Of a DNA stretch of 55,247 nt, positions 20,893 to 51,516 are shown in pieces (the stretch's first letter is position 1; every line of letters starts with the position of its first letter). The notes under the pieces are model-generated. The model was not told the origin of the DNA. It made no database searches and saw nothing but the letters and a program-made list of their open reading frames with translations. The stretch comes from Candidatus Terraquivivens tikiterensis (lineage in GTDB: Archaea > Thermoproteota > Nitrososphaeria_A > Caldarchaeales > Wolframiiraptoraceae), in the NCBI GenBank assembly GCA_003056285.1, contig NDWU01000008.1, positions 1 through 55,247 of the forward strand. The letters run 5' to 3'. Both the position numbers and the translations under genes were made by a program.

Positions 20893-21042
20893 CTCACGGC
20901 CGAGGGATAACCAACCATCCGGCGACGGCATCGGATCCGAACGCTTATATGTAGGGCTGTGTATCTAAGCCTTGCCCCGATGAAGAACCCAAAGCTCACA
21001 CGGACCTTATGAAGAACCATAGGGTCGCTGAGGGGTTCTGAG

Positions 21043-23930: not shown

Positions 23931-24204
23931 CCGTCCCAACTTGGCCCTCACGGAAATAGACTATTCAGGATGCACAGCACGCGTCATTTTCTTAATTAAC
24001 ATGAATAAAATGAACTCCTGGAATGAATTGAAGTGTATAAAGAGCAGACACGTTAAAGAAATTTTCTGTAGCGTTAGATCGCCGGGAAGGAGGGTTGTCG
24101 AATTCGTCGTCAGGCTGAGAAACGTGCCTGGTGCCATAGCTAAAGTTTCTAAGGCTTTGGCCTTGAGGGGCTCAATGATCACACTTCCTAACCTTTTTCG
24201 ATAG
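23908..24204 (+). pseudogene. ACT-domain protein fragment truncated at the 3' end
   Basis: RRVVEFVVRLRNVPGAIAKVSKALALRG then an unrelated sequence that overlaps the end of ORF 24172..26475. Confidence 0.55.
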
Positions 24205-26475
24205 CCTGCTCGCCGTCAGGATGGCCCCAGCGATTACGGCAGCCGCCATCATGGGCAATGCCATCGTGCAAAGGTCGTCCATACCCAATGCAACCCCTCC
24301 CAGCTCAGCTACTACCGGAAGCTTTACCCTGACGTCGCCCGAGCCTGGTACCGAGATCTGCTGCTCTACGCCCTTGGAGCCCCTGTAGGCCTTCAACGTG
24401 TACCTTCCTTCCGGTAGGTTATGGAACTCCGCGAGGCTCCCATACTTCTTGTCTACGAGCAAGAATCCCCTGCTCAGCTCAACATCGGCATCCAAAGGAG
24501 AGCCGAGCTCGTTTAGGACGGTTACCCTGAGAGAGTATAAGGGGACTGCTAAGTACATGTCCTTATCCATGACGGCTACTTCCCTCTCGACTAACGTGAA
24601 CCCTCTGTACGTTGCCCTCAGCTGATGCCTTCCGGATGGTACCTGGCCAAGCATGGCGACGCCTGTCTTATCCGTAACAGCCCTCGTTTTGCCGAGCGTT
24701 ACCTCCACGGCCTCGACAGGCTTACCGTACTGGTCGGCCACTCTGACCCTGACGTCGTACGCATCTACGGTTATATCGTACTCGCCCTGCCTGACGTAGA
24801 CCTTCGCGGAGAACACTTTCCTATCCCAAAGCGTAACCGTCAGGTTGTACGGCGCCTCGGGCATGTCCTGAAAACTTGCGACACCGCCATCGACGTTAGA
24901 CCGAGCACCGTATTCGAAACCATCGCCCGAGACGACGACAGTACCGGATGAGAGCGGTGAGCCGTCCATAGTCTTCAGCCTGAATGCCACGTCGTAAACT
25001 TTCAGCCTGACCTCCGCCACCCTGCGTTCCTTCGTCAGCGCTACGGCACCATCGAACACTCCTATGCCCATCCAGTACGCCTCGATACGGTATTCCCCTT
25101 CTGTCGCGTCAGGAAGCTCAAGGATGCCTTTGGTCACCTTCCATTCCTTACCTTCTATGTACGCCTTCTTTATGTCCATAGCATCTCCTGAATAGTCCTT
25201 GAACACGATCATCCCGTCGAATACAGATAGGTTGAGAAGGTTCTCGCCATGGTTCTCAGGTATCCTCACCCTGTAATGGCCGACCGTGACGTTCTTTCCC
25301 AGATATCGGTTATACGCGTAAACGCTTACGTCGTATTCGCCCTTTGGTAAGGCATAGAAGCACAACCTCTCCCTCCCTAGCTTCTCCTCATGGATTCCCA
25401 TACCGGAGATCCTGGCGGAAAACTCCATCAGGGTTCTCCTACCATCCGCATCCCTTAGGTCCAGGATTATGTCGCCAACAGCGGCAGTCGCGTTGATATA
25501 CGCTCCGACCATAAGCGGCGGGACAGGAGATGTAACCGTTACGTTCCCACGGAATACCTCGACGCCCCTGTGCTCTATCGATACGTTGTACCTCCCGTAG
25601 GGCACGTTCCTGAACACCGCGAAACCGTTATCCAGACGCTGCTCGACGTTTCCCAGATAGGCAGTAGCGTTCAAGGGCCTTCCAGAAATATCCCTCGCCT
25701 TAAGCTGCACGTCGAATACCTTTGTCTTTATCATACCAGAAGATGCCAACTCGTAGAGGGAGTACGGAGCCGGGCTGTGTACGTTAACCAACCTGCCGTC
25801 GTACGGGGACCTGTACCACACGGTTACCTCATAGTAGTCGTCGTGCAGCCTATCAACGTTCACTACGCCGCTTTCGGACGAATACGTATAAGTCATTCCC
25901 GTCGAATAGCTCTTCATCGTAACCGTCGTGTAGGGTACAGCGCTCCCTCCCGTATAGTCCCTAACTTCAAGCTTAAAGCTCCTGTAAGGCAGGGATTGTA
26001 TGCAGCACACATCATGAACCGTTACAGTGAACACGTTGGGCTCATCCCCGATGGACGTGCGTACGTGCGCGTATGCCCTTACGTTACCCGTTGGAGCCAT
26101 AGGCGGAAGGCTAACTGGAACCCATAGACCACTTTTGGTCTCGTTCACGCCCAACCTGACCGGTCTATCCAGGCTTAGGGACCCGACGTACCCCGTAGCC
26201 TCGACGAACAGCTCTATCCCGTACACGTATACATCCCGTCCGTACACGTTCGTTAAAGCCAGGTCCACCTCACCATTACCACCCGGATGTATGTCCCCGG
26301 ACTGCCTGTATATCGAGCCCTCGAATACCTCCTTAACAATCTGAGGGAAGGCTGGCACGTTCAGGGTTGCAAAGGCGAAGATGGCCAGAAGGAACAGCCA
26401 CATCGTCCCGGCGTTCAACCCTTTTCTAACCCAATGCATCGTTCTCCACGCCCCTACGATGTCTCCCCATCCCAC
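24172..26475 (-). CDS. Membrane-anchored surface protein with serial carboxypeptidase-regulatory/beta-sandwich-like repeats
   Basis: N-terminal hydrophobic segment, repeats such as VRVADQYGKPVEAVEVTLGKTRAVTDKTGVAMLGQVPSGRHQLRATYRG, C-terminal TM ALPMMAAAVIAGAILTA plus basic tail. Confidence 0.8.
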   Translation of the reverse strand: MGWGDIVGAWRTMHWVRKGLNAGTMWLFLLAIFAFATLNVPAFPQIVKEVFEGSIYRQSGDIHPGGNGEVDLALTNVYGRDVYVYGIELFVEATGYVGSLSLDRPVRLGVNETKSGLWVPVSLPPMAPTGNVRAYAHVRTSIGDEPNVFTVTVHDVCCIQSLPYRSFKLEVRDYTGGSAVPYTTVTMKSYSTGMTYTYSSESGVVNVDRLHDDYYEVTVWYRSPYDGRLVNVHSPAPYSLYELASSGMIKTKVFDVQLKARDISGRPLNATAYLGNVEQRLDNGFAVFRNVPYGRYNVSIEHRGVEVFRGNVTVTSPVPPLMVGAYINATAAVGDIILDLRDADGRRTLMEFSARISGMGIHEEKLGRERLCFYALPKGEYDVSVYAYNRYLGKNVTVGHYRVRIPENHGENLLNLSVFDGMIVFKDYSGDAMDIKKAYIEGKEWKVTKGILELPDATEGEYRIEAYWMGIGVFDGAVALTKERRVAEVRLKVYDVAFRLKTMDGSPLSSGTVVVSGDGFEYGARSNVDGGVASFQDMPEAPYNLTVTLWDRKVFSAKVYVRQGEYDITVDAYDVRVRVADQYGKPVEAVEVTLGKTRAVTDKTGVAMLGQVPSGRHQLRATYRGFTLVEREVAVMDKDMYLAVPLYSLRVTVLNELGSPLDADVELSRGFLLVDKKYGSLAEFHNLPEGRYTLKAYRGSKGVEQQISVPGSGDVRVKLPVVAELGGVALGMDDLCTMALPMMAAAVIAGAILTASRLSKKVRKCDH

Positions 26476-28613
26476 TCTCCCGGAGCTTGCATAGAACCTC
26501 TCCTGCCCTTCAAAAACCTCTTGACAGCAAAGTACGCCAGGAGCGTAGCCCCTAAGAGCGTTGCAGCTTGGATGGCAAGCACAATGGGTAGAGCCTGCTG
26601 CCCGCCTTCATGCCGGGGCCTCTTCACGATGAGCGTTACCTCAGCCTCTGCTCCGTCGGCCCTTATCCTAATCCTAGCCTCTCCTTCTGGAGCGTCATCC
26701 GAGGCTGTCGCTAAGATGCTTGAATCGACTGGGCACATGGGCTTAAGCGCTATGCTTGGCGTCCTGAGGGCAATGTACTCACCCATACCAATCTTCTCTA
26801 CGCTTACATCTGGCTTCCCCGAGAAGCCGTTGAGGGGGGCTAGCGTGAACGGTACGACGGTCGAGGAGCCTGCGTAGACCTCAAAAAACCTATTCTGGAG
26901 CTCGATCCTGAGCGATGGCTGAGGATAATGCTCTTCCTTGACCCTGTATAGAGCCTTCCTCGTCATCACGAGGGCCTCATCCTTACCGGTCCAGGCTATG
27001 CCCTTGACCTCCTCTCCTACGCTTACGGGCAGAGCCCATGCCGCGTATCCGTCAAACAGGATCAAAGAGCCGTCGGCCGTTCCTATCAGGGCGTACGAGC
27101 CGTCAGGCCTCATCGATATCGTTCTCAGCCTGTGCTTGCCAAGGCTGAGTGCCGCTACGGACCCGTCCCTGAGCACGATTACCTTCCCCGACTCCGCTAT
27201 TGCTATCCCTGAACACTCTGTCTCGGCTACCCCTACGAGCCTATCGTCGACTTCAGCCACCACGACCTGTGGAGCGATCCTGACGGCGACCCTTTCACCC
27301 ACGGCATAGCTCGACGAGGCGGCCAGTAGGTCCCTGCCCGTAGCGTTGATGGGCACCACATCGCCCTCTAGCGATGCCTTGACGAGCCTGCCTCCCCTTC
27401 CTGCGAGGACGAGCCACCCGTCTCCGGACGGAGAGATAGCGTTGAAATCGCCCGCCGAAACCCTTAGGCTTAAGCTGCTGAGGTAGCCAGGGCCTACGAG
27501 CCATATGGACCTCTTGCCGAGGATTACAGCCCTCCCTCCTGGAATGGCAGAGACAGCCCTAGGCTCGTCGCCAACCTCTCCTACCGCCCTGAAGAAGCCA
27601 CCGCTGTACTCTAAGACCTCTCCCCTGGATCCGATTACGAAGGCTCCGTTCCCCGTTCCGGCTATGGCTGCGTACTCAGAGGCCTGGAGCGTTAAGAGCT
27701 TAAGGCCTTTTTCGTCCAGCACGCCTACCTCTCCCCTCTCACCTACCAGGATCGTGCCCAGCCTGCCGTAGGCCGCATCGGCCACTTTGAACCAGACCGT
27801 CGAGAGCAGGCTAGTCCTGTTCTCGGCTACGTCGTATAACACAACCCTGTCACGGCCTACGAGCACGAAGCCCCTAGGGTGCTTCCTAGCGAGCGCGTAC
27901 GCTCCGTCTACTACCTTTCTCGGAGCACCCCCATCGAGCCTGTAGATGCCGTCATCGGCATGAACCCATAGGCCGCCGAGGTGAAGGTGCATGCTCCTAG
28001 CCTTGGCCTTACCGAGCTGCAGCTCATTTTGAGGGGGGATAGGCTCTCCGTCCTTCAGGCTGATCGAGAGGGTGGAGCTGGATCCTAAAACCGTGACCCT
28101 ATCGTCCCCGGACCACTCCAAATCGACGACGTCGATGGGAACGTCAAGGATGGACTCTACGGCTCCGGCTTTGTACACGAGTAACCTCCTGCCCGATGCC
28201 ATCGCCGCCCTTTCCCCGCTTACCTTAACTACGCTCAGCCTATCGTTCTCGCCAAGAACCCTCCTAGGTTCAAAGCTCATCCCGTCCGGCCTTATAACGA
28301 CGAGCACTCCCCCGGCTCCGACGGCAACGCAGAACCCTTCGCCGCAGTCTACGTCCACGAGGTCGCTACCGACGACCTTCTCAGAATGGAGCCTAGAGTC
28401 CTTGTAGATTATGACAGCTCCGGCCTTTCCTACGGCTACGAAGCCATCCCCATAAGGGCTTATGGCGGTGATGCCTGCGTCGAGCGTAAGCCTCTCGTAA
28501 GAGAACCTGAAGGATGGCTCTTGGGCACATGCCGGCACGATGGCTGTTAATAGAAAGAGGAGGGGTGTCGAGATGGACAGCACGCTGAGCGTAAGAACAA
28601 TCGGAGGCCTCAA
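26454..28613 (-). CDS. Beta-propeller-like surface protein, signal peptide and C-terminal TM
   Basis: Signal LTLSVLSISTPLLFLLTAIVPACA; repeated G.(V/I)VxxDG units (about 40 aa); C-terminal LPIVLAIQAATLLGATLLAYFAVKRFLKGRR. Confidence 0.75.
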   Translation of the reverse strand: MRPPIVLTLSVLSISTPLLFLLTAIVPACAQEPSFRFSYERLTLDAGITAISPYGDGFVAVGKAGAVIIYKDSRLHSEKVVGSDLVDVDCGEGFCVAVGAGGVLVVIRPDGMSFEPRRVLGENDRLSVVKVSGERAAMASGRRLLVYKAGAVESILDVPIDVVDLEWSGDDRVTVLGSSSTLSISLKDGEPIPPQNELQLGKAKARSMHLHLGGLWVHADDGIYRLDGGAPRKVVDGAYALARKHPRGFVLVGRDRVVLYDVAENRTSLLSTVWFKVADAAYGRLGTILVGERGEVGVLDEKGLKLLTLQASEYAAIAGTGNGAFVIGSRGEVLEYSGGFFRAVGEVGDEPRAVSAIPGGRAVILGKRSIWLVGPGYLSSLSLRVSAGDFNAISPSGDGWLVLAGRGGRLVKASLEGDVVPINATGRDLLAASSSYAVGERVAVRIAPQVVVAEVDDRLVGVAETECSGIAIAESGKVIVLRDGSVAALSLGKHRLRTISMRPDGSYALIGTADGSLILFDGYAAWALPVSVGEEVKGIAWTGKDEALVMTRKALYRVKEEHYPQPSLRIELQNRFFEVYAGSSTVVPFTLAPLNGFSGKPDVSVEKIGMGEYIALRTPSIALKPMCPVDSSILATASDDAPEGEARIRIRADGAEAEVTLIVKRPRHEGGQQALPIVLAIQAATLLGATLLAYFAVKRFLKGRRGSMQAPGEWDGETS

Positions 28614-28620
28614 TACCAGC

Positions 28621-31600
28621 TCACCTTACGAGGCCCAAGTCCTTTAGCATCCCTCCATACCCCTCGAGCTCCATCTCCTTTAGCCATGCGTCGTCCAGCG
28701 TGCCTCCTCTGTCCAAAACCGCCTGGACCGCCTCTGCCAAAGCCTCCAGCTCTTCTGGATCCATGAAGCCGGATAGCAGGGCTTTAACGGCCATCCTTCC
28801 GGCACCCTTCCTGTCAACCTCCATGCACCTCTTAAGCTCCGCAGCTAGGCCGGCTTCCAGCTGCTGGAGCAGGCCGAGGGCCATTGCTGCCTTGGGTGCT
28901 ATTCCGCCTGTCTGCTTGAGAGCCTCAGCGCCGCGGGCGGCATCCACGAGGAACCTCCTAACCCTTCTCATCTTCCCGAGCACCCTCAGGTCGCTTAGGT
29001 AAGCCATGTATGCCTTTTCCACGATCAGCACGACGGCCTTGGAAAGGTCTAGGGCACCGGTGTTCAGGAGCTTACAGAGCTTGGATACGTACGCTCTACC
29101 TAACTTCGCATCGCTCCTCTTGTCCGTTATCTGGCTAGGGTACGTCGGCCTCGAGAGCGGTACGACGACTGTCCTGCCCTCTTCCTGGCTTGCTTTCACG
29201 TGCTTCACGAGAGATTCCAGGCGCTCGCCCTCGAGGGATACGACCTCCATCCTTTCGGTTAGCTTGATGGGCTTTACTATCAGGCCGGGCGGTACCAACC
29301 AGCCTATGCCCTCGAAGATTATCAGGTCTCCGGGTACGGCCTCGATCTTGCCGGTTATTGGTCGGGGAGGCTCTTCATCCTTGGCGACTTCCGCCGAAAG
29401 CTTCTTATATTCTTCGCGGATCCCACCATGCTCCAAGGAAGGCTTCCCGTTTTCCCCTACATTCGAGAGAAGCTTAGTTGCAGACTCAAGCTTATCGACG
29501 ACCGTTAGCATGGCCGCGACGATCGTGTCCTCGTCTAGCCTGGCGTTCCTAAGAAGGTTATGAGCGGCCCTGTAGCACTCAACCCTATCGCCCGCCTTGC
29601 CGGACTCTGCTATGCTCTTTGCTACCCTGATAAAATCTTCCCTGCTTATGCCCAGCTCGTCCAGCTCCCTGAAGAGCTCCTCCGGAAGCTCCCCTAAGAT
29701 CCCTGCAGCCGGCCCTGCCTCCTCTGGCCTAAAGGCCTCGGCAGGCTTCCCCTCGGGAGCCTCCATTTCCTTCTGTTTTGTTAGCCTTGCTCCGCATGCC
29801 ATGCAGTACCTATCGGATTCCCTGACGTAGGAGCCGCAGTACGGACACTCGTACTTCTCCGGGCGCTCTTCCTGCCCAACACCTTCTCTCCGTACCCCCT
29901 TAAGCTCGGCTCCGCAACTTAAGCAGAATCTGTATGAAGGTTTTAGGACTGCCTCGCAGTATGGGCACCTTCTTGTACCATCCTCAGGTATAGCGCCGGC
30001 TTCCTCTAGAGGCCGTGTTTGCTGTGTTGAGGGCTTTTCCACATCCTTGAATGGCGGCCTCTCACCGTATACCCGCACGTAAACTTCCTCGAGCGCCTCC
30101 CTCAGCGGGGCAGGAGGTTCCAGGAACCTATCCATGAGGCCGCTCTCCATGAGGGCGGCGGAAAGCTTGGAGACGTCCCTTTCTTGAAGCCTCCTCAGCA
30201 CATCATCCTCCCTGAGCAACCTTACGTAACGTACGGCATCCTCCTCAGTTTTCGCACCGTGTACGCGCTCGATCCATCTTTCGAATACCTTCCTGCTCGA
30301 AGGTACCAGGTAGAGCCATGCTAGGTATGCTCCTATTGACCCTGCTATGCAACGAAGGTGCTCGGGATTTAGATACGTTCTGTACATCTCCCTGCATTCC
30401 CTTAATATGGCGTTTAGCAACCTTCCTTTTGCTCCCCTCGTCCTGAGGGCGAGCTCAGAAAGGGTAAGCCTGCACCCATCCGTCAGCAACTGCCTAAGCC
30501 CGTCGACTTCCATCCCAGGCGCCATGCCTTCTCCAGGATAGAACGCGAAGATGCCATTCACCGGCTCACCCGCGGCCTCCCTCAGGCCCTCCAGCTTCCT
30601 CTCTACCTGAGAGGCCCGACGCCTTCGCACCTCTTCAAGCCTTCTCTTGAAATACGGTACCGTCAAAGTGCTCCCTACCAAAGACGTGCCCAAGAGCCCC
30701 CAACCTAGCAGCATCCATAGCTGCTCGTAGGTCATGATCCTTGCATCTCCCAACACCACGTAAGGGCACGGGTCCATCTGCCTGAACTCCGCCGTTATGA
30801 AAGCGTAACCATCCTTTGCCACGAAGCTTCCGAGCTCTGAGCTGCCTAGGCTCCTTACGGCATGCTCCTCTCCAGTCCAGCCCAGAAATTCGTAGCAGCC
30901 CAGGGGATATGCCTCTACGTATACGGTCGTACCCGGCTCTACCCACAGCTCCATCTTCCCCTTCAGGCCGAGCCCCCTCTGCGTGATTGGCACCGTCGAT
31001 ACCCTAACCTTTCCAGCATCGGGAGGGCTTGCCTCGACCCTTACCATCGAGAACCCCATGCCGTACGTCCTGTAAGCCTCCTGCTCCGGTAGCAAAGCGT
31101 TAAGCGGCCTGAGGATTGCCTTGAGCGTCATGTTCTTCTCAGCCGTCACCCATAGGGGGTTTGGGAGGGCCGTCGGCGCGTCGGTAAGCCACCCCTCCAC
31201 CATGCAGCCGATCTTAGGTATGGCCTCTAACCTGAGAGGCTCGCCGTCAACCCAAGGCCCTGCCTTGTAGATGCCCTCGGCGACCCTCTGAACGTCTATG
31301 CTTACCTCCTTGCCCTCACGCCAAGTGCTGGCCTTGATGCCATCCAGGCATGCCTCTCCGTTAACGGCTACGGATGCATACACTTTCATGGGCCTCTTGT
31401 ACGTTATGTGCACCTCTACAAGGTTATCCCCTGCCCTCAGCCATGTCGATGCCGAGGATGCTCCCTCGATTGTATAGTTCTCGTACGCCATGACCTTCAG
31501 CCACCCAGCGTAGCACCTAGTTCCTGGGACAACGTCCACAGCTAACCTCACCTGAGCATACTCCCTGAAGGGCCCGGCCTTCCACGTGTACCCGTCTAAC

Positions 31601-31785
31601 CTTGTAGGCTTCGCGTCCTCGTAGTCTACCTCGAGCCTTATGCCACCGACGCATTGGGGCTCGTCGACCTTTATCGTAAGCCATGCTTGACCTATTCCGT
31701 CATCGGAGCGCGCCGGATGCGTTAGCGTAAGCATCAGCGCCATGAGGGCTATCGAGAACACCGCTACGATCCTCTTCGGCACCAT
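28621..31785 (-). CDS. Very large membrane protein: InlB-type beta repeats outside, TM, cytoplasmic part with two zinc ribbons
   Basis: KVRVSTVPITQ...WVEPGTTVYVEAYPLGCYEFLGWTG; RRCPYCEAVLKPSYRFCLSCGAEL and YECPYCGSYVRESDRYCMACGARL. Start set at internal MVPKRIVAVF, which overlaps the upstream stop as ATGA. Confidence 0.8.
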   Translation of the reverse strand: MVPKRIVAVFSIALMALMLTLTHPARSDDGIGQAWLTIKVDEPQCVGGIRLEVDYEDAKPTRLDGYTWKAGPFREYAQVRLAVDVVPGTRCYAGWLKVMAYENYTIEGASSASTWLRAGDNLVEVHITYKRPMKVYASVAVNGEACLDGIKASTWREGKEVSIDVQRVAEGIYKAGPWVDGEPLRLEAIPKIGCMVEGWLTDAPTALPNPLWVTAEKNMTLKAILRPLNALLPEQEAYRTYGMGFSMVRVEASPPDAGKVRVSTVPITQRGLGLKGKMELWVEPGTTVYVEAYPLGCYEFLGWTGEEHAVRSLGSSELGSFVAKDGYAFITAEFRQMDPCPYVVLGDARIMTYEQLWMLLGWGLLGTSLVGSTLTVPYFKRRLEEVRRRRASQVERKLEGLREAAGEPVNGIFAFYPGEGMAPGMEVDGLRQLLTDGCRLTLSELALRTRGAKGRLLNAILRECREMYRTYLNPEHLRCIAGSIGAYLAWLYLVPSSRKVFERWIERVHGAKTEEDAVRYVRLLREDDVLRRLQERDVSKLSAALMESGLMDRFLEPPAPLREALEEVYVRVYGERPPFKDVEKPSTQQTRPLEEAGAIPEDGTRRCPYCEAVLKPSYRFCLSCGAELKGVRREGVGQEERPEKYECPYCGSYVRESDRYCMACGARLTKQKEMEAPEGKPAEAFRPEEAGPAAGILGELPEELFRELDELGISREDFIRVAKSIAESGKAGDRVECYRAAHNLLRNARLDEDTIVAAMLTVVDKLESATKLLSNVGENGKPSLEHGGIREEYKKLSAEVAKDEEPPRPITGKIEAVPGDLIIFEGIGWLVPPGLIVKPIKLTERMEVVSLEGERLESLVKHVKASQEEGRTVVVPLSRPTYPSQITDKRSDAKLGRAYVSKLCKLLNTGALDLSKAVVLIVEKAYMAYLSDLRVLGKMRRVRRFLVDAARGAEALKQTGGIAPKAAMALGLLQQLEAGLAAELKRCMEVDRKGAGRMAVKALLSGFMDPEELEALAEAVQAVLDRGGTLDDAWLKEMELEGYGGMLKDLGLVR

Positions 31786-34310: not shown

Positions 34311-36151
34311 CACCCACCGCCCGCTCCCGTGAAGCCTCCAAGAAGCCTGCCGACAAGGTCCGCTAACGGTCCAACGGCCGCATAAGCTCCAGCGACGCAT
34401 ACCATGGCGACGGCTACCCTCCATACGTTCCACGGGTGCATATCGGAGGCCCTGTTAACCATGAGCGTGTACGATAGCGTGGCGAACGCTATCATCAGCA
34501 TGCTCGTGTCCGTCATCGCGAGCATCTGCTCAGCGCTAACGCTAACACCTGGTAGTAAGCCGGATAAGCTCCCATGGGCCTCGGCTGGTAAGCCCATGCT
34601 CATGAACGAAGGTATAGGGATGATCATGGTGATCATGAAGGACGTTATGAATGGTATGGAGTATGCTAGGTACTTGAAAAGGGATAGCCTGGCCCTGGCC
34701 TTCTCCCTGGCGAGGCCGTAACCCCTGAGAAGCTCGATGAGCTTCTCCATGAGCTGGGGGGATCCGCCTCCGCTTACGTTTACGGCGTTGAGAACGTAGA
34801 CGGAGACCTTCGTCAGCCAGCTCTTGGCAGCCGCACCCGCCTCCCAGAGGCTTAGGCCCATCGCAACCCTGGATGCCATCGAGCTAAGGAAGCTTTGGAA
34901 CCCTTTACGGTACCTATGCCTCCTGGTCCTCACGACCGCATCGGTCGGCGTGTAACCTAACCTTCTGTACTCTGCCACATCCCTAAGCCACCTCCTAAGC
35001 TCTGCCTCTCCGTCCTCGACCTCTGAGATCCTTTTCCTGAGCATGAGGTACAGAACCGTGGATGCCAGGGCCGAGGAGGATGTGAAGACTACGGTCAAAG
35101 GCATGCTTAGGCTGAGGCATAGTAGGGCCGCTGCCGTAGCGGCTCCTGCCGCTAGCGAAAGGATAAGGTGCTTGGGCCTTACGTCGAACTCATCAGGCTT
35201 CCTCGGAGATTTCAGCCTAAGGAAGGCGTACATGCCGAAAGACATCCCTGGCAGGAGGGCCCACGTCGTGACCGTAAGCACGCCCGTAGCCTGCTCCGGG
35301 TTTACTATCGTAGCAAGGGCTATGCCCATTGGCAGGAGCAACAGGGCTATCAGAAAAACCTCCATCATCACCGCTACGTTCGCAGCGTACCTGTCGAACC
35401 TGTCTTCAAGGGACTTCAAGAGCTCGGCAGCCCTGTCCTCGAGCGTCATGGGCACGTTCCCGCCCATCCGCCATACGCTCGTCGTGGATAGGACTAGGCT
35501 CTGGTAGCCTTCGTGGGGGCTGTTCATGGCGCTCGCCTCGAGCGACTCGATGACGCCCTTTCCAGTAAGCTCTGCCATCCTCTCTACCTCCCTCGACTCG
35601 AGGCTCATCTGCTCGAACAGCCTGGAGCCAGTCCTGGCAAGCATCCTCATCGCGCCGTACAGCGTCATGCCGCAATGGCTCATCACCGTCGCGAAGACCG
35701 CGAAGAACGGGAGCTCAGAGTCTATGCGCTCCTTCCTCTCAACTATCCTGTTGCCGTAGCTGGCTAAAGACAGGGCCATGGGCGCTATAGGAAGGAGGCA
35801 AAAGAGCATCGGAAAAAGAGGCGGAACCATCCGGAACGTCATGGCAGTTACAATGACAGAAGTTATGTATGCTGCCGCGACCGCCGAGGCCATCGCCAAG
35901 TGGGTACCGAGCTCCTCGGCTACCTCCAAAGGCGTCTTCCTTAGGGCACCTTTCTCGACGAGCCTCGCCGAATAATCTGCAAGCCTATCCGAGAAGGGCC
36001 TCGCCAAGAGGTTGCCCAGGACGGCAGCGAAGAGCGTGGCCGGAGCCGGCGCCAGAAACATGACATCCCTGGGCCCTACGAGCTCGGCGTAGACGATCCA
36101 AGAGGCCGCCAGGGTTGCCGCGATGCCGTAGTATAACCAGCTCGTCCTCAT
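34310..36151 (-). CDS. TadC/FlaJ-type (T2SS F) integral membrane platform protein, two-module
   Basis: Multiple TM helices; two T2SSF-like blocks (PLFAVF...SHCGMTLYGAMRMLA; FQSFLSSMASRVAMGLSLWEAGAAAKSWL...VNVSGGGSPQLMEKLIELL). Confidence 0.88.
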   Translation of the reverse strand: MRTSWLYYGIAATLAASWIVYAELVGPRDVMFLAPAPATLFAAVLGNLLARPFSDRLADYSARLVEKGALRKTPLEVAEELGTHLAMASAVAAAYITSVIVTAMTFRMVPPLFPMLFCLLPIAPMALSLASYGNRIVERKERIDSELPFFAVFATVMSHCGMTLYGAMRMLARTGSRLFEQMSLESREVERMAELTGKGVIESLEASAMNSPHEGYQSLVLSTTSVWRMGGNVPMTLEDRAAELLKSLEDRFDRYAANVAVMMEVFLIALLLLPMGIALATIVNPEQATGVLTVTTWALLPGMSFGMYAFLRLKSPRKPDEFDVRPKHLILSLAAGAATAAALLCLSLSMPLTVVFTSSSALASTVLYLMLRKRISEVEDGEAELRRWLRDVAEYRRLGYTPTDAVVRTRRHRYRKGFQSFLSSMASRVAMGLSLWEAGAAAKSWLTKVSVYVLNAVNVSGGGSPQLMEKLIELLRGYGLAREKARARLSLFKYLAYSIPFITSFMITMIIPIPSFMSMGLPAEAHGSLSGLLPGVSVSAEQMLAMTDTSMLMIAFATLSYTLMVNRASDMHPWNVWRVAVAMVCVAGAYAAVGPLADLVGRLLGGFTGAGGG

Positions 36152-37986
36152 CTTGCTCCGACCTTCTTGTAAAGCCTCTCGGCCACGAGCCTATGGAACT
36201 CCCTCAGGCCCATGTCGCTCTTGGATGCTTCCTCTACGAGCCTGGCCCTCTCCTCGATCTGGCCTACGGCCCATTCCTTGCTAAACCCGGTCCTCTCGAG
36301 AAGCCATTTTATCTTAACGCTCCTCCCCACGGCCTCCTCTGCCGTCTCAGGGTGGAAAGAGTCGTCGGCCTTCCTGTAAGAGAACACCTCTACTACGTCC
36401 AGGCCAGTCTGGCTTTCGGGGTTGGGTATTATCTCCGCTACGCTGCTTACCCTCCTTACCCTTCCTTGGGCAGTATCCTGGAAGCTCGTCATAGCGCACC
36501 CCCAAAGGAACGTCAGCATGGCCTCGCTTAGGCCCGTCTTCCTAAGCATTATCGAGAGGCGCGAGTAGAACTCTTGCGGAGAGCCTGCATGGAACGTGAA
36601 GCCTCCGCCGTGGCCCGTGAAGGCGGACTTGAGCAGATAGTAAACGGACTCGTCCTTCCTTACCTCCCCTATCACCAAATAGTCTGGCCTCATCCTCATC
36701 GCTATGTCTATCAGCTCGCTCTCTGAGATATCCAGGTGCCCTATGGCCATCATGGCAGGCCTTCTCGTCGTCATCGGAAGCCAGTGTTCGTGGGGTATGT
36801 TTATCTCGAACACGTCCTCGACCGTGATTATCTTGCTGTTTGGATGCAGGCATGCAAGCAGGGCCGTGAAGAGGGAGGTCTTGCCGCTTCCGGTAGGTCC
36901 AGCCAACCCTATAAGGGCCTTGTTCTCCAAAGCGAACCATAGGTAGCCGGCCATGACGGGCGTAAGCATCTTCATGTTCACTAGCCTTGGAAGGCTCCAT
37001 GGGTCCTCCGGGAACTTCCTTATGGTGAAGGCCGGACCGTAGGCCGTCAGCTCCCTTCCGAGTATTCCCGCGAAACGGCTCCTATCGCTCATGGCAAAGT
37101 CTGCGTAAGGTTTGTAAACCGTCATTACGCTCCCGGCCCTGTGGGCATGCTTGTTCATGTAATCGTTGAGCGCCTCGTCGTCTGGAAAGATTATGTTGGT
37201 CTGTAGGTACAGATAGTGTGCATAGTCTCTGTGGACCACCCTTACGGGTATTCTGGGGCCGACGCACGAGATGTCCTCTACTTTGGGGTCCCTTGCCGGA
37301 ACGTCTACAGGACCCAGCCCGAATATCTCCCTGTTAAGGAAGTACCTTACCCTGGCTACGGACTCCTCGTCAGGGTTTACGCCTACCTTTTTGAAGGAAT
37401 CGCGCATGAACGAAGATATCATCTCATCTATCTTGCTTGCTACCCTGTCCTCCCCATCAACCCCGACCCTTCTTGGGCCCCTTAAGAGCTCGAGCTCAAG
37501 CCCCCGGACGTCGGCCTTCCTGTATATCGCGTCGACCGTAAGCGCGTAAACCAGCTTCTCAACACCACTCATCTCTGGCTCTGTAACCATGTAGAGCCCT
37601 GTGAGGCCGTCGTAGGCTATCCTGACGTTGGCGATGCCTACGGGGTACTCCTCGAGCGTATCGCCCCTACGGTCGTCCCTCAGAGGTACGGGTATGGACA
37701 CGTTGACCATCAGGTACTGCCTGAGCGCGTCCAGTACCTTTGATGCCCTCTCCTCCTCGCGGGTCTTGGGCTCGGCCTCACCTGCCCAAACCCTTCGCCT
37801 CCTCTTTTCCTTTACCTTCTTCCCCTCGGCCTCCTTCTCCTCCGCTTTCTTGAGCTTATCAGATTCCTTAGCCTCCTCTAAGAGCAGGCTTACCATCACG
37901 CCGCAGCCTGGGCAGTATTTCATTCCGTGCTCGAGTTTCATGCCGCATCTGGGGCAGTCGACAACACTCATCCGATGCCACCCCAT
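36148..37986 (-). CDS. Type II/IV secretion ATPase (TadA/FlaI/GspE superfamily) with N-terminal zinc ribbon
   Basis: MSVVDCPRCGMKLEHGMKYCPGCGVMV; Walker A LAGPTGSGKTSLFTALLACLHPNSKIITVEDVFEI; MRPDYLVIGEVRKDE...FTGHGGGFTFHAG. Confidence 0.95.
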   Translation of the reverse strand: MGWHRMSVVDCPRCGMKLEHGMKYCPGCGVMVSLLLEEAKESDKLKKAEEKEAEGKKVKEKRRRRVWAGEAEPKTREEERASKVLDALRQYLMVNVSIPVPLRDDRRGDTLEEYPVGIANVRIAYDGLTGLYMVTEPEMSGVEKLVYALTVDAIYRKADVRGLELELLRGPRRVGVDGEDRVASKIDEMISSFMRDSFKKVGVNPDEESVARVRYFLNREIFGLGPVDVPARDPKVEDISCVGPRIPVRVVHRDYAHYLYLQTNIIFPDDEALNDYMNKHAHRAGSVMTVYKPYADFAMSDRSRFAGILGRELTAYGPAFTIRKFPEDPWSLPRLVNMKMLTPVMAGYLWFALENKALIGLAGPTGSGKTSLFTALLACLHPNSKIITVEDVFEINIPHEHWLPMTTRRPAMMAIGHLDISESELIDIAMRMRPDYLVIGEVRKDESVYYLLKSAFTGHGGGFTFHAGSPQEFYSRLSIMLRKTGLSEAMLTFLWGCAMTSFQDTAQGRVRRVSSVAEIIPNPESQTGLDVVEVFSYRKADDSFHPETAEEAVGRSVKIKWLLERTGFSKEWAVGQIEERARLVEEASKSDMGLREFHRLVAERLYKKVGAR

Positions 37987-38519
37987 GAGGACATGAATAC
38001 CCCTGCCTGGACCGTGTGGAAGAGCAGGTATTCCACGTCCCTCTTGAAGCCGAAGTAATCGTCGTCGTAAACAGAAAGCGATGGGTCGAGGGTGCTCGGC
38101 TTTACGGTTATGTTCTCTGAAGGCCTTAGCCTAAAGAATATGGGCTTCTCAAGGGATATTCGGTGGCCTTTCTTGAATACCGCTAAGTAATCGAGGCTTA
38201 TGCTCGAGTAGTGCCTGTTGAGTATGCACACCCTGGACCTATAAACTACGGTCCCAGTGCTGTTATCTATAATGGGCCTTATCCTTATCTCGAGTATGTG
38301 CTTCCCCTCCCTCGACATCGCCGCAACGTCCCTCGAAGACTCGGAGACCGCATCGCCCAGCTGTACACCTACGTAAGATGCGAGGAGGATGAATGCTACG
38401 GAGATGGGCAGGAGCACGACTAACGATAGGGCTGCCATCTGTCCTTTTCTATTCTTTATGGGTAGGTGCATGGCTCGCACCCCGGGTTCGGCTCCCACCA
38501 TGCCCTTGCGTATACCCAT
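37968..38519 (-). CDS. Pilin-like protein
   Basis: KNRKGQMAALSLVVLLPISVAFILLASYVGVQLG: basic residues, G, then hydrophobic helix. Start may be MHLPIKN at 38471. Confidence 0.75.
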   Translation of the reverse strand: MGIRKGMVGAEPGVRAMHLPIKNRKGQMAALSLVVLLPISVAFILLASYVGVQLGDAVSESSRDVAAMSREGKHILEIRIRPIIDNSTGTVVYRSRVCILNRHYSSISLDYLAVFKKGHRISLEKPIFFRLRPSENITVKPSTLDPSLSVYDDDYFGFKRDVEYLLFHTVQAGVFMSSWGGIG

Positions 38520-39535
38520 GCCCTCATGACAATCTTAACGTCTGGCGGAAGCTCGTCCAAAGACTTCAGAGAGCCCAATACTATGAGGGCTACCATCGGT
38601 CTCCAGGGCACAAATCCTTCAGTACTGTTAAGTAGCCGGTAAAATGTATGACCGTACCAGAAGTGGTTGATAACGTTCAAATGCGCCAACACGATTCTTT
38701 CATCGAAACCATAGTACGGCGCCTCCGTAATATACCTCCAATTGAGTTTTTCGTGCACATTCGGATAATTCCTAATGAGGTAGTCTGCTAGATATTTTAA
38801 ATCATCAGTCGTTCCAAGTATTCTTACTGGTGTTCTGCCGCTTGTATAGTATTCGCCCTCGTAGAATACTGGTATTATTGCCAAATCGAACGTTACATTG
38901 AACTTCTTCTCATAGTACAATGCGCCCGTATGGTAGAAACCTAGATGTACAACGTCGGATGCGTTCAGCTTCTTTTCTACCTCGCTACGCGGAGCTCTCC
39001 AGAGAGGACATTTTGAGTAATCTGCAAAGACTATAATGGCACCATGAGCTTCAGGATTATCCTTTGTTATCTCTAATATAAGATTGGGTACTACTGTCCA
39101 GAATACTACTCTACATAACTTATCAGGCTCGTCGTAAGCTTTATCCCAAAAAAGAAAGTATGGTACAAATTTATTATAAAATACAACTTTTTTTAGTTCT
39201 GGAGAATCTACAGAAAATGGAGAAAGTTCCCACGTTCGATATTTAGTTAGATTAAGCCCACTAGGTACGGTTATTATAGCAAACGTATCAGTTACCGTAA
39301 CCGTTTTATTAACGATTACAGTTTCAGGAACCGTTACAGTAGTCGTCTTGGTGGTTGTTTTGGTTACAGTATTTTCAATTACTGATACTATAGTTGATGT
39401 TTCAGTCTCCTTCCACGTAACGGTCTTTGTAATAGGCTCAAAGAAGTATGGATAGCCGTATAACCCTATGAGCATCCCTATAACTAAAACAATCCCGAGC
39501 AGTACGCCCGTGAATTTGTTTATCCATGCTCCCAT
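38456..39535 (-). CDS. Membrane-anchored extracytoplasmic protein with Thr/Val-rich stalk
   Basis: N-terminal TM TGVLLGIVLVIGMLIGLYGY; TVTWKETETSTIVSVIENTVTKTTTKTTTVTVPETVIVNKTVTVTDT. Confidence 0.7.
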   Translation of the reverse strand: MGAWINKFTGVLLGIVLVIGMLIGLYGYPYFFEPITKTVTWKETETSTIVSVIENTVTKTTTKTTTVTVPETVIVNKTVTVTDTFAIITVPSGLNLTKYRTWELSPFSVDSPELKKVVFYNKFVPYFLFWDKAYDEPDKLCRVVFWTVVPNLILEITKDNPEAHGAIIVFADYSKCPLWRAPRSEVEKKLNASDVVHLGFYHTGALYYEKKFNVTFDLAIIPVFYEGEYYTSGRTPVRILGTTDDLKYLADYLIRNYPNVHEKLNWRYITEAPYYGFDERIVLAHLNVINHFWYGHTFYRLLNSTEGFVPWRPMVALIVLGSLKSLDELPPDVKIVMRAWVYARAWWEPNPGCEPCTYP

Positions 39536-39541
39536 CTCACA

Positions 39542-40708
39542 TCACCGCCTGCCACATATTGTGTACCCGTACTGATTGTCGCACACGTACTGAGCGCCAA
39601 TAATTTCACCGGAACCTCCAACACCAGAACTGCCCGTACTGGATTGAGATTGCTGTCCTACTGAAAATACATAGTCACTAACAGCCTTGGCAATATCCTG
39701 AAGGTCTATCGTCATATCCGTTTGACCGATAACTACTTCTCCACCGTATGTTTTGGCGACTATCAGAAGCTGACTACCCTCGCCTGGCTTTATAACGACC
39801 TCAAAGTGGCTATGAAACTGCTTATGTTTAAAAAGCTCTTTAGTTGCCCGGTTTATTTCCTCTGATACCCCAACATCGCCGCCCTTGTAAGCCGAGATAA
39901 ATTCCCCCTCCCTTAGCGTACCGCTTTTGGTAATATCGTACCCAAGCCATTTCTCAGCCTCAAGGTCGTAGTACACGTACGTCCTGATCCTACCTTCTGG
40001 AACGCCTCCTGCCGTATGCCCTTCTCCCGAATACTCCCAGCTCACGACCATGAAGGGAACGAGCCCTCCGCCTTCCAACGTGCTCCCTACTCCGGGCAGC
40101 CCCTCCCCAGGCTGACCGGGCGCGTTGAATACGCCTCCCGGTATCTCCAGGCTGGATGGTACTGCTATGAAGTCGTTCCCTATCGCAGTGTGGAACTGAA
40201 CGTACTGAATGGTGCTAGAGTATGTTTTCCAGTCGTCATAAACGGCAAGGGACGGGTCTATCGTGCTCGGCCTTAGGTGGACGTAGGACCTTGCACCCAC
40301 TTTTATGTCCGTTTCATTGTCGTACACGACGTTCCATCCTTTATCGAAGAACGTTACCCTTACTATCCTCGATACGCCATCCCAGTCCCCGTATATGCTG
40401 ATTATAGTGTACCTAGGAACCCTCCCGTAGACCGCCTCCATGACGCGATCGGCTATCCTTCCATGCTCGTCCACAGGGTAGTTGTATATCCTAAGCACCT
40501 CCTTCGCCACTAGGTCTGCCTGCCTTGCCATGTTGATGGCGTTCATGGATATACCAAGCGCGTTAAACAGGAGTAGCGTAGCGACGGCTGAGAACAGCAC
40601 CACGACTGCCACGGTGACCATGACGGCTATCGGAGCAGTTCCCGCCAACCCTCTGTCGCCCCTCTCAGCGGCCAGACGGCCTGCTGGAGGCTTCATGGCT
40701 CTGTACAT
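39542..40708 (-). CDS. Large pilin-like protein
   Basis: ERGDRGLAGTAPIAVMVTVAVVVLFSAVATLLLFNALG. Confidence 0.75.
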   Translation of the reverse strand: MYRAMKPPAGRLAAERGDRGLAGTAPIAVMVTVAVVVLFSAVATLLLFNALGISMNAINMARQADLVAKEVLRIYNYPVDEHGRIADRVMEAVYGRVPRYTIISIYGDWDGVSRIVRVTFFDKGWNVVYDNETDIKVGARSYVHLRPSTIDPSLAVYDDWKTYSSTIQYVQFHTAIGNDFIAVPSSLEIPGGVFNAPGQPGEGLPGVGSTLEGGGLVPFMVVSWEYSGEGHTAGGVPEGRIRTYVYYDLEAEKWLGYDITKSGTLREGEFISAYKGGDVGVSEEINRATKELFKHKQFHSHFEVVIKPGEGSQLLIVAKTYGGEVVIGQTDMTIDLQDIAKAVSDYVFSVGQQSQSSTGSSGVGGSGEIIGAQYVCDNQYGYTICGRR

Positions 40709-41226
40709 GAGTTGCCTTGTAGGTCCACCACCATGAATGGGTCTGGCGGCCTGAACTCGGATGAGTATACGCCACCGCTCCTAGTGTGGATTACGACCCT
40801 AAGCGGCAGCGGGTATAGCGAGTTTACTTTATGCTCAAGAAAATTTACCCTTACGGCATCTCCCGGCATCAGGCTCCTCTTGAACGGCCCCTCGTCGACG
40901 AGGTACTCGGAGTCCACTTTAGCCAATAGGGCGGCGTGGTCTGTTTTGACCTCTGTTCCGCCTGTGTTTACAACAAGCACTTTGAAGCTCCCTGTCGCTA
41001 CGTTCCTCCTGTAGCCGCTCATGTTGTACAATAGGTCGCATAGGTTTTGGTTGTAAACGTAAACCTCGAGCCTTTCAGGTACCCTTTGGCCGCTTATCCT
41101 GTAGGATCCCTTCTTTACGCTAAGCCCGGCCGCGCTCATCGAATAGGCAATCCCGTATATCAGAAGCACCGTCAAAGCCATGATGGCGAGCGCGCCGGCC
41201 ACGAGCGTAAGACCCCTGCCCCTCAT
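40693..41226 (-). CDS. Pilin-like protein
   Basis: MRGRGLTLVAGALAIMALTVLLIYGIAYSMSAAG. Confidence 0.7.
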   Translation of the reverse strand: MRGRGLTLVAGALAIMALTVLLIYGIAYSMSAAGLSVKKGSYRISGQRVPERLEVYVYNQNLCDLLYNMSGYRRNVATGSFKVLVVNTGGTEVKTDHAALLAKVDSEYLVDEGPFKRSLMPGDAVRVNFLEHKVNSLYPLPLRVVIHTRSGGVYSSEFRPPDPFMVVDLQGNSCTEP

Positions 41227-41648
41227 TTCCCACCCCTCAGGACTATTACGCTCCCGTCCGAAAGAACGACCGCTATGTCGTTCGCGTTCCCTACCTGTAA
41301 CGTGGTTTTATCGCCGGGGTCTAGCTTTACGTTTACATCGTGCTCCCCCCACTCCGTCATGACCTTCCTTATAGTTACGGATACGTCGCCGTCGTTCGAT
41401 ACCAGCGCCTTTCCGTTCGCCACATAGATTAACGTAAGCCTTATGTTCGTCTCCCTCTCTACCCTCTGGGCGTACGCGTTTATCGAAGAGCCCGGCAGCC
41501 TTACCTTTTGGAGCGTGAGGGCGATAACTATGCCAGAGATGGCGAGCGTAACGATGAGTGCTGCGACGAGGGCCGGTACGGTGCTTATGCCCTTCTTTCT
41601 ATTCCATTTAAACACCGTCATGCTAGGCTTACGTCCAAAGGACGTCAC
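41223..41648 (-). CDS. Pilin-like protein
   Basis: NRKKGISTVPALVAALIVTLAISGIVIALTLQKV. Confidence 0.8.
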   Translation of the reverse strand: MTSFGRKPSMTVFKWNRKKGISTVPALVAALIVTLAISGIVIALTLQKVRLPGSSINAYAQRVERETNIRLTLIYVANGKALVSNDGDVSVTIRKVMTEWGEHDVNVKLDPGDKTTLQVGNANDIAVVLSDGSVIVLRGGK

Positions 41649-41658
41649 AACGGCAACC

Positions 41659-42861
41659 TCACCTCGCCCTTACCAACTCCTCCATCTCCATACCTTCTGC
41701 TTCCACCGTTCTTACATCGACGATGTAGTACTCAACGCCCGTTGAGCTTAGCCATCCCTTCAGCTCATCGACGCTTAGGACGTTTAGGGTCATCGTCTCC
41801 ATGCCGTAACTTGGCTCCCAGAAGGGCTTCTTTTCGTACACGGGCTCGTGGTACTGGCAGTGGTAGAGGCCCTCCCCGTACGGGCACCACCCAGTGCTCC
41901 ATCTATAGCCTACCAGCACATCCCTCCAGACCTTCTCGACGCCGATTACCGTCTTGTAATGAACAGTTACCATGTAGAACTTTGTCCCAGGGTCGAGCAC
42001 CATAGCCTGAGTTATCGGGTAAAGCACTACGGCCTCAACTTCCTGCGTTACCGGCACCCTATAGAGTACCCGGTATTCGACGGAGTACACCCTGGATTCC
42101 ACGGTCTCTTTACAGTAAGAGTAGCAGGACCCTTCAACGCTGGATTCCGTGTAGTTGCTCGGCACTTCAGCCTTCTCTTTAACGATCTTCGACAGATCGC
42201 TCACGGAGCCCTCAACGTTGAAAGTCAATTCTCCGCTCTTGACGATGCTCGTCCATTCGGTATCCTCCAAAACACCATGGAGGATCCCTTTCCACGTATA
42301 CGTGACCGACCGCGATCCCTTCTCTACAACTCGATACTCTATTCTTACCTCGTCTTCCCCTGTAGCGAACTGCCTCTTCTGGACCTCCTTCCTTATTCCT
42401 GTCGTTATCTCGTAAGACTTTCCGGAGTACCCCTTCCTCAGCACCCAACCCTCCGACTCGTCCCATGCCCTTTCACCCTTTAGCACAAGCACGGCTCCTC
42501 TATCGGTTACCGCCGCCAGGTTGTCAGAAGGCTCTACGCTAACTATCCTTCTCTCCCCTGGCCTTAGGGTGATGTCGACGATGTACTCTCCGTTATCCGT
42601 AATCAGCTTCACTACCCTCAGCGTCTCCTCCCCATCGTTGCTTAACAGGACATGGCCACCCGATTGCCAAACTAGCGATACCCTCTCGCCTGCCCTACCC
42701 GAACCGGCCTGCAGCGCCATCTCCCCAGAGGTAAGGCCTATCCTGAGCTGGGGGCTTGCTACGGCGTACGCTACTGTCACCAATGCCAGGCCTACTGCTA
42801 TCAACACACCAGCGGCCACCAAGCCAGATATACCTCCTCTGCTCCAGCTGCCCTCGCTCAT
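41659..42861 (-). CDS. Large pilin-like protein
   Basis: WSRGGISGLVAAGVLIAVGLALVTVAYAVA. Confidence 0.78.
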   Translation of the reverse strand: MSEGSWSRGGISGLVAAGVLIAVGLALVTVAYAVASPQLRIGLTSGEMALQAGSGRAGERVSLVWQSGGHVLLSNDGEETLRVVKLITDNGEYIVDITLRPGERRIVSVEPSDNLAAVTDRGAVLVLKGERAWDESEGWVLRKGYSGKSYEITTGIRKEVQKRQFATGEDEVRIEYRVVEKGSRSVTYTWKGILHGVLEDTEWTSIVKSGELTFNVEGSVSDLSKIVKEKAEVPSNYTESSVEGSCYSYCKETVESRVYSVEYRVLYRVPVTQEVEAVVLYPITQAMVLDPGTKFYMVTVHYKTVIGVEKVWRDVLVGYRWSTGWCPYGEGLYHCQYHEPVYEKKPFWEPSYGMETMTLNVLSVDELKGWLSSTGVEYYIVDVRTVEAEGMEMEELVRAR

Positions 42862-42887
42862 TTTCCCATTACCAGCCTATCGCCAGC

Positions 42888-43334
42888 TCAACCCCTTAGG
42901 TAGAGCTTGGCGGGCTGTATTATGACCTGGTTATCGGGCGTAAGCGCCCTAGCTTCTAGGATGTATTCGCCCGGGCGTATCCCTGGAATCTTGAACGACT
43001 CGCTGAACGTCTCAGAGGGCTTAAGGTCGACGCCGATGCTCCTGCTCCACTCGCCGACTATCCTCAGCTCGCTAAGCCTCACGCGGTCGTTAGAAACGTT
43101 CGTGACGGAAACGCTCAGTATCGCTCCGTTCGCGAACGGCTCTATCCTTGCGTACACCGACAGCCCGTACGTCTTGGATTGAGGCGCTATCCTGGAACCC
43201 AACGCGACGCCGGCCACGATTGCCAGAAGGACCCCTATTGCGACCAGGACGGAAACTGCTGCCACCTCGCTTAGCCCCGAGCGCCTGCGTGGGCTGCATA
43301 AAAAAATTGGGAGGTTTTGGGCCACGGCCACCAC
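42888..43334 (-). CDS. Pilin-like protein
   Basis: RRRSGLSEVAAVSVLVAIGVLLAIVAGVALGSR. Confidence 0.8.
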   Translation of the reverse strand: MVAVAQNLPIFLCSPRRRSGLSEVAAVSVLVAIGVLLAIVAGVALGSRIAPQSKTYGLSVYARIEPFANGAILSVSVTNVSNDRVRLSELRIVGEWSRSIGVDLKPSETFSESFKIPGIRPGEYILEARALTPDNQVIIQPAKLYLRG

Positions 43335-43769
43335 CTATACGACCGGCACGCTCGTCGCATGCCTTACAGGACTGCTCGTGCCTGCTGCCATCCCCGTCGC
43401 CTCTACGACTATCATGTCGCCTCTTCCGACACCGCTCAAAGATACGAAGCCCGATACGGCTCCCTCTGCACCAACGCGTAACGTGCCTATGGTACCTACG
43501 GATGCCGTAGACGTCCCGAACATGGCAGAGACCGCAACGTTGTTGACGTCTACAGAGCCGTCGTTCTTAACCTTAGCCACAACGTATATTCCGTTAGGCT
43601 GGTAGTATGCTGAAGCTTCTATCACCTTTATGCTCTCCGACCTTGCGAAGGCTCCGACCTTTGCCTGCGTCAGCGTACCTACGAGCATTGCTATGGCAAC
43701 GGCTACGACTACGAGTATGATCGTCGCGACAGGGGCAGACAGCCCAAGGCGCTTGGCCTTCGTGGGCAT
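43335..43769 (-). CDS. Pilin-like protein (archaeal type IV pilin N-terminal type)
   Basis: KAKRLGLSAPVATIILVVVAVAIAMLVGTLTQA. Confidence 0.82.
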   Translation of the reverse strand: MPTKAKRLGLSAPVATIILVVVAVAIAMLVGTLTQAKVGAFARSESIKVIEASAYYQPNGIYVVAKVKNDGSVDVNNVAVSAMFGTSTASVGTIGTLRVGAEGAVSGFVSLSGVGRGDMIVVEATGMAAGTSSPVRHATSVPVV

Positions 43770-43779
43770 GCCGGTCGCC

Positions 43780-44412
43780 CTAGATGTGGCCTATGGCGCT
43801 CTTCTGGTCCTTCACGGTCGTTCCGCCAGGACCAGTCGCCGTCGCCGTCGCGATGTATGCCTGTCCGCTCTCAAAGCCGGATCCTGTTCCGGAGCACGTC
43901 GTGGTCTGCCCTGGGCTGAGTTCGGTCGTAGTGCATGTCAGGCTCACGGAACCAGCAGGACCGGTTACTTCTACTGTTAGGCCCGTGAGCTTGGCTCCTC
44001 CGCTGTTCCTTATGTCTGCGACGATGCTTGCAGCTCCCGTCACGGGGTTCACCAGGATGTCGACGCGCTCGACAGTAAGCTTGGAAGATGTTCCCCAGCC
44101 GAATAGAAAGCCGCCCGCTATCGACGCGACGACCACGGCCAATGCAACGCCAACGACGATGAGTATTAGGGCGACGATAGTCCCGCTTATTCCAAGCTTG
44201 GATCTACTCTTTCTATACACCGATCTTTTCTCGGTATTCATGTTAGTCATGTTAGTGATGAATTCAAAAATATATAAATTTTCCCCTGTCAATAAAGCTT
44301 TTTTATAAAATTTATAAGCAACATTTATAAAATTTTGACGTGAATAAAAACATACAAAAAGTTCTAATAACCCGTAGCTATCCATGAGGCCTAAAACGTA
44401 CTCAGATATCAT
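43780..44412 (-). CDS. Pilin-like protein (archaeal type IV pilin N-terminal type)
   Basis: RSKLGISGTIVALILIVVGVALAVVVASIAGG; likely start is the internal MNTEKRSVYRKSRSK. Confidence 0.82.
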   Translation of the reverse strand: MISEYVLGLMDSYGLLELFVCFYSRQNFINVAYKFYKKALLTGENLYIFEFITNMTNMNTEKRSVYRKSRSKLGISGTIVALILIVVGVALAVVVASIAGGFLFGWGTSSKLTVERVDILVNPVTGAASIVADIRNSGGAKLTGLTVEVTGPAGSVSLTCTTTELSPGQTTTCSGTGSGFESGQAYIATATATGPGGTTVKDQKSAIGHI

Positions 44413-44481: not shown

Positions 44482-44818
44482 TGAGCGTCGAGGATTACCC
44501 GGGGCCAAACGGTAAGCACCTCACGGAGCCCGAGGAGCTTCTCGCTAAGCATCGGAGAAGCTTTTGGGGAGCCGCAGCCGAGGCCGTAAAGGCTACTGCA
44601 GCCGCAAAATGGGTTCTTTGGGAATGTATAGAAGCCTCTGGGAGTTTGTACATAAGCTAGATAAGGAGAGGCCCGGGATGAGCCTAATCGATGGTTCAGG
44701 GCTGCGGAGAACCTGCACACAAATCTCTACGGGGCCACCTCCCTGAAGGCGTCGTCGAGCTGACAGCAAAGCGGGTAAAAAGATTTCGTAGAAGGGTGAG
44801 GCAGCCAATGTGGTAATT
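44482..44818 (+). pseudogene. PaREP1-like protein remnant (multiple frame breaks)
   Basis: EDYPGPNGKHLTEPEELLAKHRRSFWGAAAEAVKATAAAKW; LWEFVHKLDKERPG; RWFRAAENLHTNLYGA; PEGVVELTAKRVKRFRRRV in different frames. Confidence 0.5.
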
Positions 44819-49241: not shown

Positions 49242-49242
49242 A

Positions 49243-51484: not shown

Positions 51485-51516
51485 AGTTATCTTTTGCCAG
51501 TACCTTCTATGTTGGT

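Follow-up and report, generated by a model that had tools for sequence, protein, structure and literature searches.

A cluster of 15 genes on the minus strand (positions 24172–44412) is likely, judging from its sequence, to form a single operon for a type IV pilus (T4P), most probably an adhesive one, and to be the archaeon's sole T4P system. We favor this reading because of the core domains encoded by the cluster, eight prepilin signals, the presence of its assembly ATPase and T2SSF protein as the sole representatives in the genome, a gene order conserved in a relative from another family (G027), the phylogenetic trees, and the similarity of the first gene product, p1, to known pilins. The window (i.e. 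the whole stretch of 55,247 nucleotides that was analysed) is an entire contig, G000:C35, of a 1.54 Mb genome (G000) that is 97% complete. All features of the cluster described below lie on the minus strand.

The 15 adjoining genes reported in the initial annotation were borne out, with every ORF open and free of internal stops and neighboring genes overlapping or no more than 26 bases apart (+26 to -124 bases when the longest ORFs are used). Each of the reported overlaps (41226/41223, 37971/37968, 36151/36148, 34310/34310, 31785/31785) was confirmed; the final two require internal ATG starts. Internal starts at ATG 37971, 34310 and 31785 fit better than the longest ORFs, and in the 31785/34310 region the G027 orthologue of g12 begins at the internal ATG. 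A TATA-box-like sequence, aatttatata (44271–44280), was read directly from the sequence upstream of p1 and is probably the operon promoter, which would imply a leaderless start. The start of p1 is more likely ATG 44250 or 44241 than 44412, since the TATA-like box lies ∼25 bases upstream and the orthologue in G027 is 149 aa long. The operon is flanked by a CRISPR-Cas type I gene set (44818–55117; HD and Cas3 helicase, followed, as read by eye, by Cas8/7/5-like, Cas6-like, Csa3-like, Cas4, Cas1 and Cas2 genes), and directly to its left is a pair of IS605 OrfB/TnpB-type genes in opposite orientations (19753–22302).

The secretion ATPase and TadC/FlaJ-like protein named in the initial annotation were confirmed by profile search. 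The T4P assembly ATPase (36148–37971) matched T2SSE at 1.1e-24, over the cut-off, and carries an N-terminal zinc-ribbon motif that scored under its own cut-off; its best match among solved structures, obtained with a four-row profile, was 2oap (1e-88). The ArlJ/TadC-type membrane platform (34310–36151) contains two T2SSF modules (5e-16). These are the sole pilus-type T2SSE ATPase and the sole T2SSF protein in the genome; the other T2SSE match in G000, at 3637–5661, looks like a PINA-type ATPase with a PIN domain. Among curated models, the ATPase scored best with FlaI/ArlI, at 217 bits against a cut-off of 550, followed at a distance from their thresholds by BasE (186 of 1000 bits), TadA (141 of 373), VirB11 (86 of 250) and GspE (35 of 630). 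The platform reached 191 bits with the UpsF model (cut-off 400), a model whose cut-off was exceeded in all 14 of the Sulfolobaceae-like genomes, and the remaining bindosome models were likewise missed (BasF 134 of 1300 bits, BasC 19.5 of 260). Because the curated models for Ups, bindosome, archaellum and Tad all stayed under their cut-offs, the locus is filed only as a broad-sense archaeal T4P, a class of which four features were found here: a VirB11-family ATPase, an ArlJ/TadC platform, class III pilins and a prepilin peptidase encoded in the genome. The label "Tad-like" given initially holds for general ATPase/TadC homology but not for a Tad pilus, as the TadA cut-off was missed.

Class III signals (K/R...G/A, then a hydrophobic stretch without charges) were found in eight of the 15 proteins, p1–p7 and p9, upholding the earlier count of about eight pilin-like proteins. 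The search used a relaxed form of the prepilin pattern, the strict form having missed p1–p4; it matched none of the 43 other ORFs in the window and 10 of 719 shuffled proteins, and matched x8 and g15 weakly. Three PilA-like pilins head the operon, identified by their class III signals and by comparison with G027. The first, p1 (43780–44250), carries the signal RSKLG|ISGTIV, has an orthologue in G027 and is probably the major pilin; it matched the UpsA model at 5e-8 (33 bits, under the cut-off of 130), the solved archaeal pilin 8fj5 at E 2.9e-4 and the Aap pilus 8q30 at E 0.017. The second, p2 (43335–43769), matched UpsA at 6e-5 (23 bits, under the same cut-off), and p3 (42888–43334) matched Pilin_N at 0.016, under its cut-off. 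These are followed by the paralogues p4 (41659–42861), a long pilin-like protein with an extra ∼270 aa at the C-terminus, and p5 (41223–41648), both recognized from their class III signals and the G027 comparison. On the basis of the signal, pilin-like proteins are also encoded by p6 (40693–41226), a putative minor pilin for which no homologue was found in the comparison, and by the paralogues p7 (39542–40708; long) and p9 (37968–38519). As initially noted, no prepilin peptidase is encoded in the window; it lies elsewhere in the genome (G000:C15:36876–37202; PF01478, 38.6 bits, cut-off 26.5).

The abundance of minor pilins, together with large envelope-spanning proteins and an ATPase/platform architecture common to type II secretion, could also describe a secretion apparatus in which a pseudopilus piston exports a substrate and no long filament is made. 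We regard this as quite improbable, given that three pilins of normal PilA-like size head the operon, that p1 resembles subunits of solved filaments, that no secretin-like or substrate gene was seen in the operon, and that the GspE and VirB11 models fell far under their cut-offs.

Phylogenetic analysis favored a T4P distinct from the archaellum. In the ATPase tree (74 rows), the window, G027, G023 and G026 formed one long branch (100/98) inside a 20-row starred clade (96/94) that also holds the Ups and bindosome ATPases; the archaellum ATPases, among them sequences from the genus to which the window belongs, formed a separate clade (100/100). The same four loci grouped together in the platform tree. 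When G023 and G026 were left out, the nearest row to the window changed and the next starred set containing the window pair comprised 27 rows. As the branches are long, a position beside Ups/Bas is less certain than a separate branch that is not archaellum. The four-genome branch itself is well supported and falls within the archaeal T4P radiation. Sulfolobaceae loci in the tree were considered as Aap (AapE) and rejected, since their neighbors exceed the UpsF cut-off, making them Ups loci with UpsE.

An archaellum or divergent swimming motor might be suggested by FlaI being the best-scoring ATPase model and by the archaella of relatives in the same genus. It is nevertheless most improbable: the FlaI score is less than half of its cut-off, the archaellum ATPases of the order fall in their own clade, and no ArlH-type gene was recognized among the 15 proteins. 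Archaellum-type ATPase loci were observed in G004 and G005 (same genus), G024 (FlaI, 640 bits), G027 and G031, whereas a search of the window genome yielded none.

Another reading is a T4P specialized, like Ups, for cell-cell contact and DNA exchange rather than general adhesion. The ATPase falls in the Ups-holding clade of the full tree, UpsF is the best curated match of the platform, and p1 and p2 match UpsA weakly. All Ups cut-offs fail, however; there is no UpsX-like gene before the ATPase, the gene order is unlike that of Ups, and the operon contains no gene for DNA processing or DNA import. Such a specialized function thus seems unlikely, and an adhesive T4P remains the reading we prefer.

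Additional observations were made on ATPases of relatives. The T4P-type ATPases of G018:C32, G006:C23, G017:C3, G036:C3, G038:C68 and others appear to carry an in-frame insert of ∼400 aa near the conserved motif TGHGGG, with matches that extend to residue 447/448 and resume in several cases at 456/457, and with ORFs of 939–1124 aa; these inserts are possibly inteins. An apparent intein (CLPGDSFIMTVNGLKKVEEVKVGEQVYAYD...VVHN) was also seen in a 2-oxoacid:ferredoxin oxidoreductase beta-subunit-like gene of G026 (L036:4339–6363).

A matching operon was found in G027, which belongs to the same order but to another family. Its genes follow the order p1, p2, p3, p4/p5, x8-like, ATPase, TadC, g12, g13 with equally tight spacing, and it also holds longer pilin-like and surface genes. 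Identity between the window and G027 was 44% for the ATPase, about 31% for the platform and a low 25% for g13; the g12 orthologue is nearly full length. A minimal form is present in G023 and G026, comprising a pilin, the ATPase, the platform and only the N-terminal half of g12 (ectodomain and TM helix), such that relatives of g12 occur in four of the 44 genomes of the order. Across 400 sampled genomes of the phylum, a sample that takes in Sulfolobaceae as judged by bindosome and Ups scores, full-length g12 and g13 were found only in G000 and G027; all other matches covered just short stretches of repeat or zinc ribbon. Large genes located 3' of TadC in G198 and G148 were considered as g12 relatives and rejected, as they are DNA ligases. 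A contig search with the ATPase found only Thaumarchaeota archaeon UBA164 (L042), whose T4P locus is without g12. That locus encodes a 763-aa protein with a pilin signal and InlB repeats (i.e. a giant pilin), and an 811-aa VirB4-type ATPase-like gene lies several kb from the 763-aa pilin gene. In G027, a 914-aa gene inside the pilus operon (L033:19555–20000 and L034:1–2299) encodes a surface protein with a C-terminal TM helix and a metalloprotease-like motif, HEFGHAIGLGH. The G027 operon runs into a five-TM gene and then a tubulin/FtsZ-like GTPase (L033:8407–9417; PF00091, 2.2e-9); the latter is absent from the window operon.

The two large genes that follow the platform share a similar predicted layout. 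Profile search showed that g12 (31785–34310) begins with a signal peptide, followed by an ectodomain that contains an InlB B-repeat-like (Flg_new_2) domain, a TM helix and a cytosolic half that ends in a zinc-ribbon motif. The layout of g13 (28621–31785), found by the same means, is as in g12 with two cytosolic zinc ribbons; its weak TM helix was assigned by eye to residues ∼385–405 of the longest ORF. In both proteins about half or more of the length, including all zinc ribbons, lies on the predicted cytosolic side. A comparison of the two profiles revealed only an InlB-like stretch in common, and neither profile had a meaningful match in the PDB. AlphaFold2 modeling of the g12 cytosolic half, from a two-row alignment, gave an unusable model (pLDDT 43); a by-eye impression of a degenerate AAA+ domain in this half was rejected, being without Pfam support. 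The g12 of G027 has no zinc ribbon and its g13 has one that is weakly recognized; because their number is not conserved, the ribbons may modulate rather than define function. The initial annotation described four very large membrane or surface subunits; that these are large membrane proteins held, but not that all are surface subunits, as g12 and g13 appear to be bitopic with cytosolic zinc ribbons.

The next two genes and x8 encode anchored surface proteins. For g14 (26454–28613), with a signal peptide and a C-terminal TM helix, AlphaFold2 predicted two propellers at residues ∼35–560 (mostly pLDDT 65–87, with a dip near 270–315), and the best Foldseek matches were tandem propellers (E 1e-18), suggesting a membrane-anchored double beta-propeller. 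Beta-propellers are very common, so the fold gives no specific function. The TM-anchored surface protein g15 (24172–26475) carries CarboxypepD_reg repeats (PF13620, 4e-18). Upstream, x8 (38456–39535) combines an N-terminal TM helix, a Thr-rich stalk and an ectodomain, and corresponds by position to a 237-aa TM/Thr-stalk protein of G027. The GC content and GC3 of x8 are both 42%, versus 53% and 59–67%, respectively, for its neighbors p7 and p9, with most of the operon at 53–59% GC, and it is likely a recent, compositionally foreign replacement. This composition, along with the different surface genes that occupy the corresponding part of the G027 operon, suggests that surface modules have been exchanged.

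It is a fair question whether g14, g15 and perhaps x8 belong to the machine, or are unrelated surface proteins beside a simpler pilus operon, an arrangement that would be compatible with the T4P operon as a whole. In G027, g14 and g15 lie ∼8 kb upstream of the operon with their order swapped; full-length relatives of g15 occur as solitary genes in several members of the order that lack the pilus operon; and x8 is foreign in composition. Against this, g14 was found at full length only in G000 and G027 (among 300 genomes), the two genomes that have g13, and in the window it shares the operon's strand, with g15 overlapping it and g13 lying 7 bases away. Overall, we consider unrelated neighbors an appreciable possibility, though the less probable one. 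For g15 itself the association with the pilus is uncertain, and the protein is not confined to this machine.

With the T4P operon as the preferred reading, the gene products suggest how the machine may work. The separately encoded prepilin peptidase would cleave the pilins, and an ATPase ring beneath the platform would drive their insertion. The shaft would be built by p1 with p2 and p3, and p4–p7 and p9 would act as minor pilins that prime the filament or make its tip. Both g12 and g13 would span the membrane, with the InlB-repeat ectodomain outside and the zinc-ribbon half inside; from their topology and position, they probably serve as a scaffold tying the ATPase and platform to the cell envelope, or as a load sensor. 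Membrane-anchored surface accessories would be provided by g14, with its double beta-propeller, and x8, whereas g15 may be a surface protein that is encoded alongside without being a dedicated component. We offer more tentatively the possibility that the g12/g13 scaffold couples the ATPase, via zinc ribbons that the ATPase carries as well, to the outer face of the membrane as an analogue, not a homologue, of PilMNOP, with the minimal g12 (ectodomain and TM helix) being the signature of the branch and the cytosolic halves having been added later.

Archaeal pilus machines have been portrayed as very simple, consisting of an ATPase, a platform and pilins. In this branch, each of the four known members encodes an additional envelope-spanning protein beside the platform, and two of the genomes have a second large one. 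The g12/g13 set thus provides defined candidates for the anchor or sensor of an archaeal pilus, and the patchy presence of the branch in the order, together with the swapped surface modules, illustrates the modular evolution of pilus machines.

The proposal that the cluster fits no known set stood with respect to the archaellum, Ups, the bindosome and Tad, for which cut-offs fail and from which the ATPase and platform form a branch of their own. The archaellum has a homologous ATPase and platform, but its ATPases are in a separate clade and no ArlH was recognized among the window's 15 proteins. Ups of Sulfolobales (UpsX-E-F-A-B) is similar in that its ATPase falls in the same larger clade of the full tree, the window platform is closest to the UpsF model and the PilA-like pilins are related to the UpsA model; unlike Ups, the window cluster is without UpsX and has eight pilins rather than two, and g12–g14 have no counterpart in the Ups loci inspected. 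The Sulfolobales bindosome (Bas) also has an ATPase in the same larger clade and several pilins, but the BasE and BasF models scored far too low on the window proteins. Aap, which is described as consisting of AapA, B, E, F and X only and whose structure is 8q30, likewise has one ATPase and one platform, and p1 may be distantly similar to its solved pilus subunit; giant accessory proteins such as those of the window have not been reported for it (PMC11178815). Archaeal T4P clusters reportedly lack the bacterial PilMNOP alignment complex (PMC11178815). The claim of an apparently undescribed machine was, however, too strong, since the locus is inside the known archaeal T4P radiation and a 2016 census that distinguishes ten archaeal T4P variants includes similar loci, in which minor-pilin sets, adhesins and large S-layer-like proteins carrying C-terminal TM helices occur (PMC4858521). 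In bindosome loci the census records a membrane protein with a zinc ribbon and a secreted protein of ∼500 aa; it further lists proteins with double zinc ribbons from thaumarchaeal loci and genes of the FtsZ family from other archaeal T4P loci (PMC4858521). A further parallel, compared by description, is with the clade 4 crenarchaeal and thaumarchaeal loci (such as 4G and 4A), which are similarly complex and share minor pilins, S-layer-like proteins with C-terminal TM helices, adhesins and zinc-ribbon proteins. The kind of machine is therefore already known, and its novel parts, within the scope of the open-licence literature, appear to be g12 and g13.
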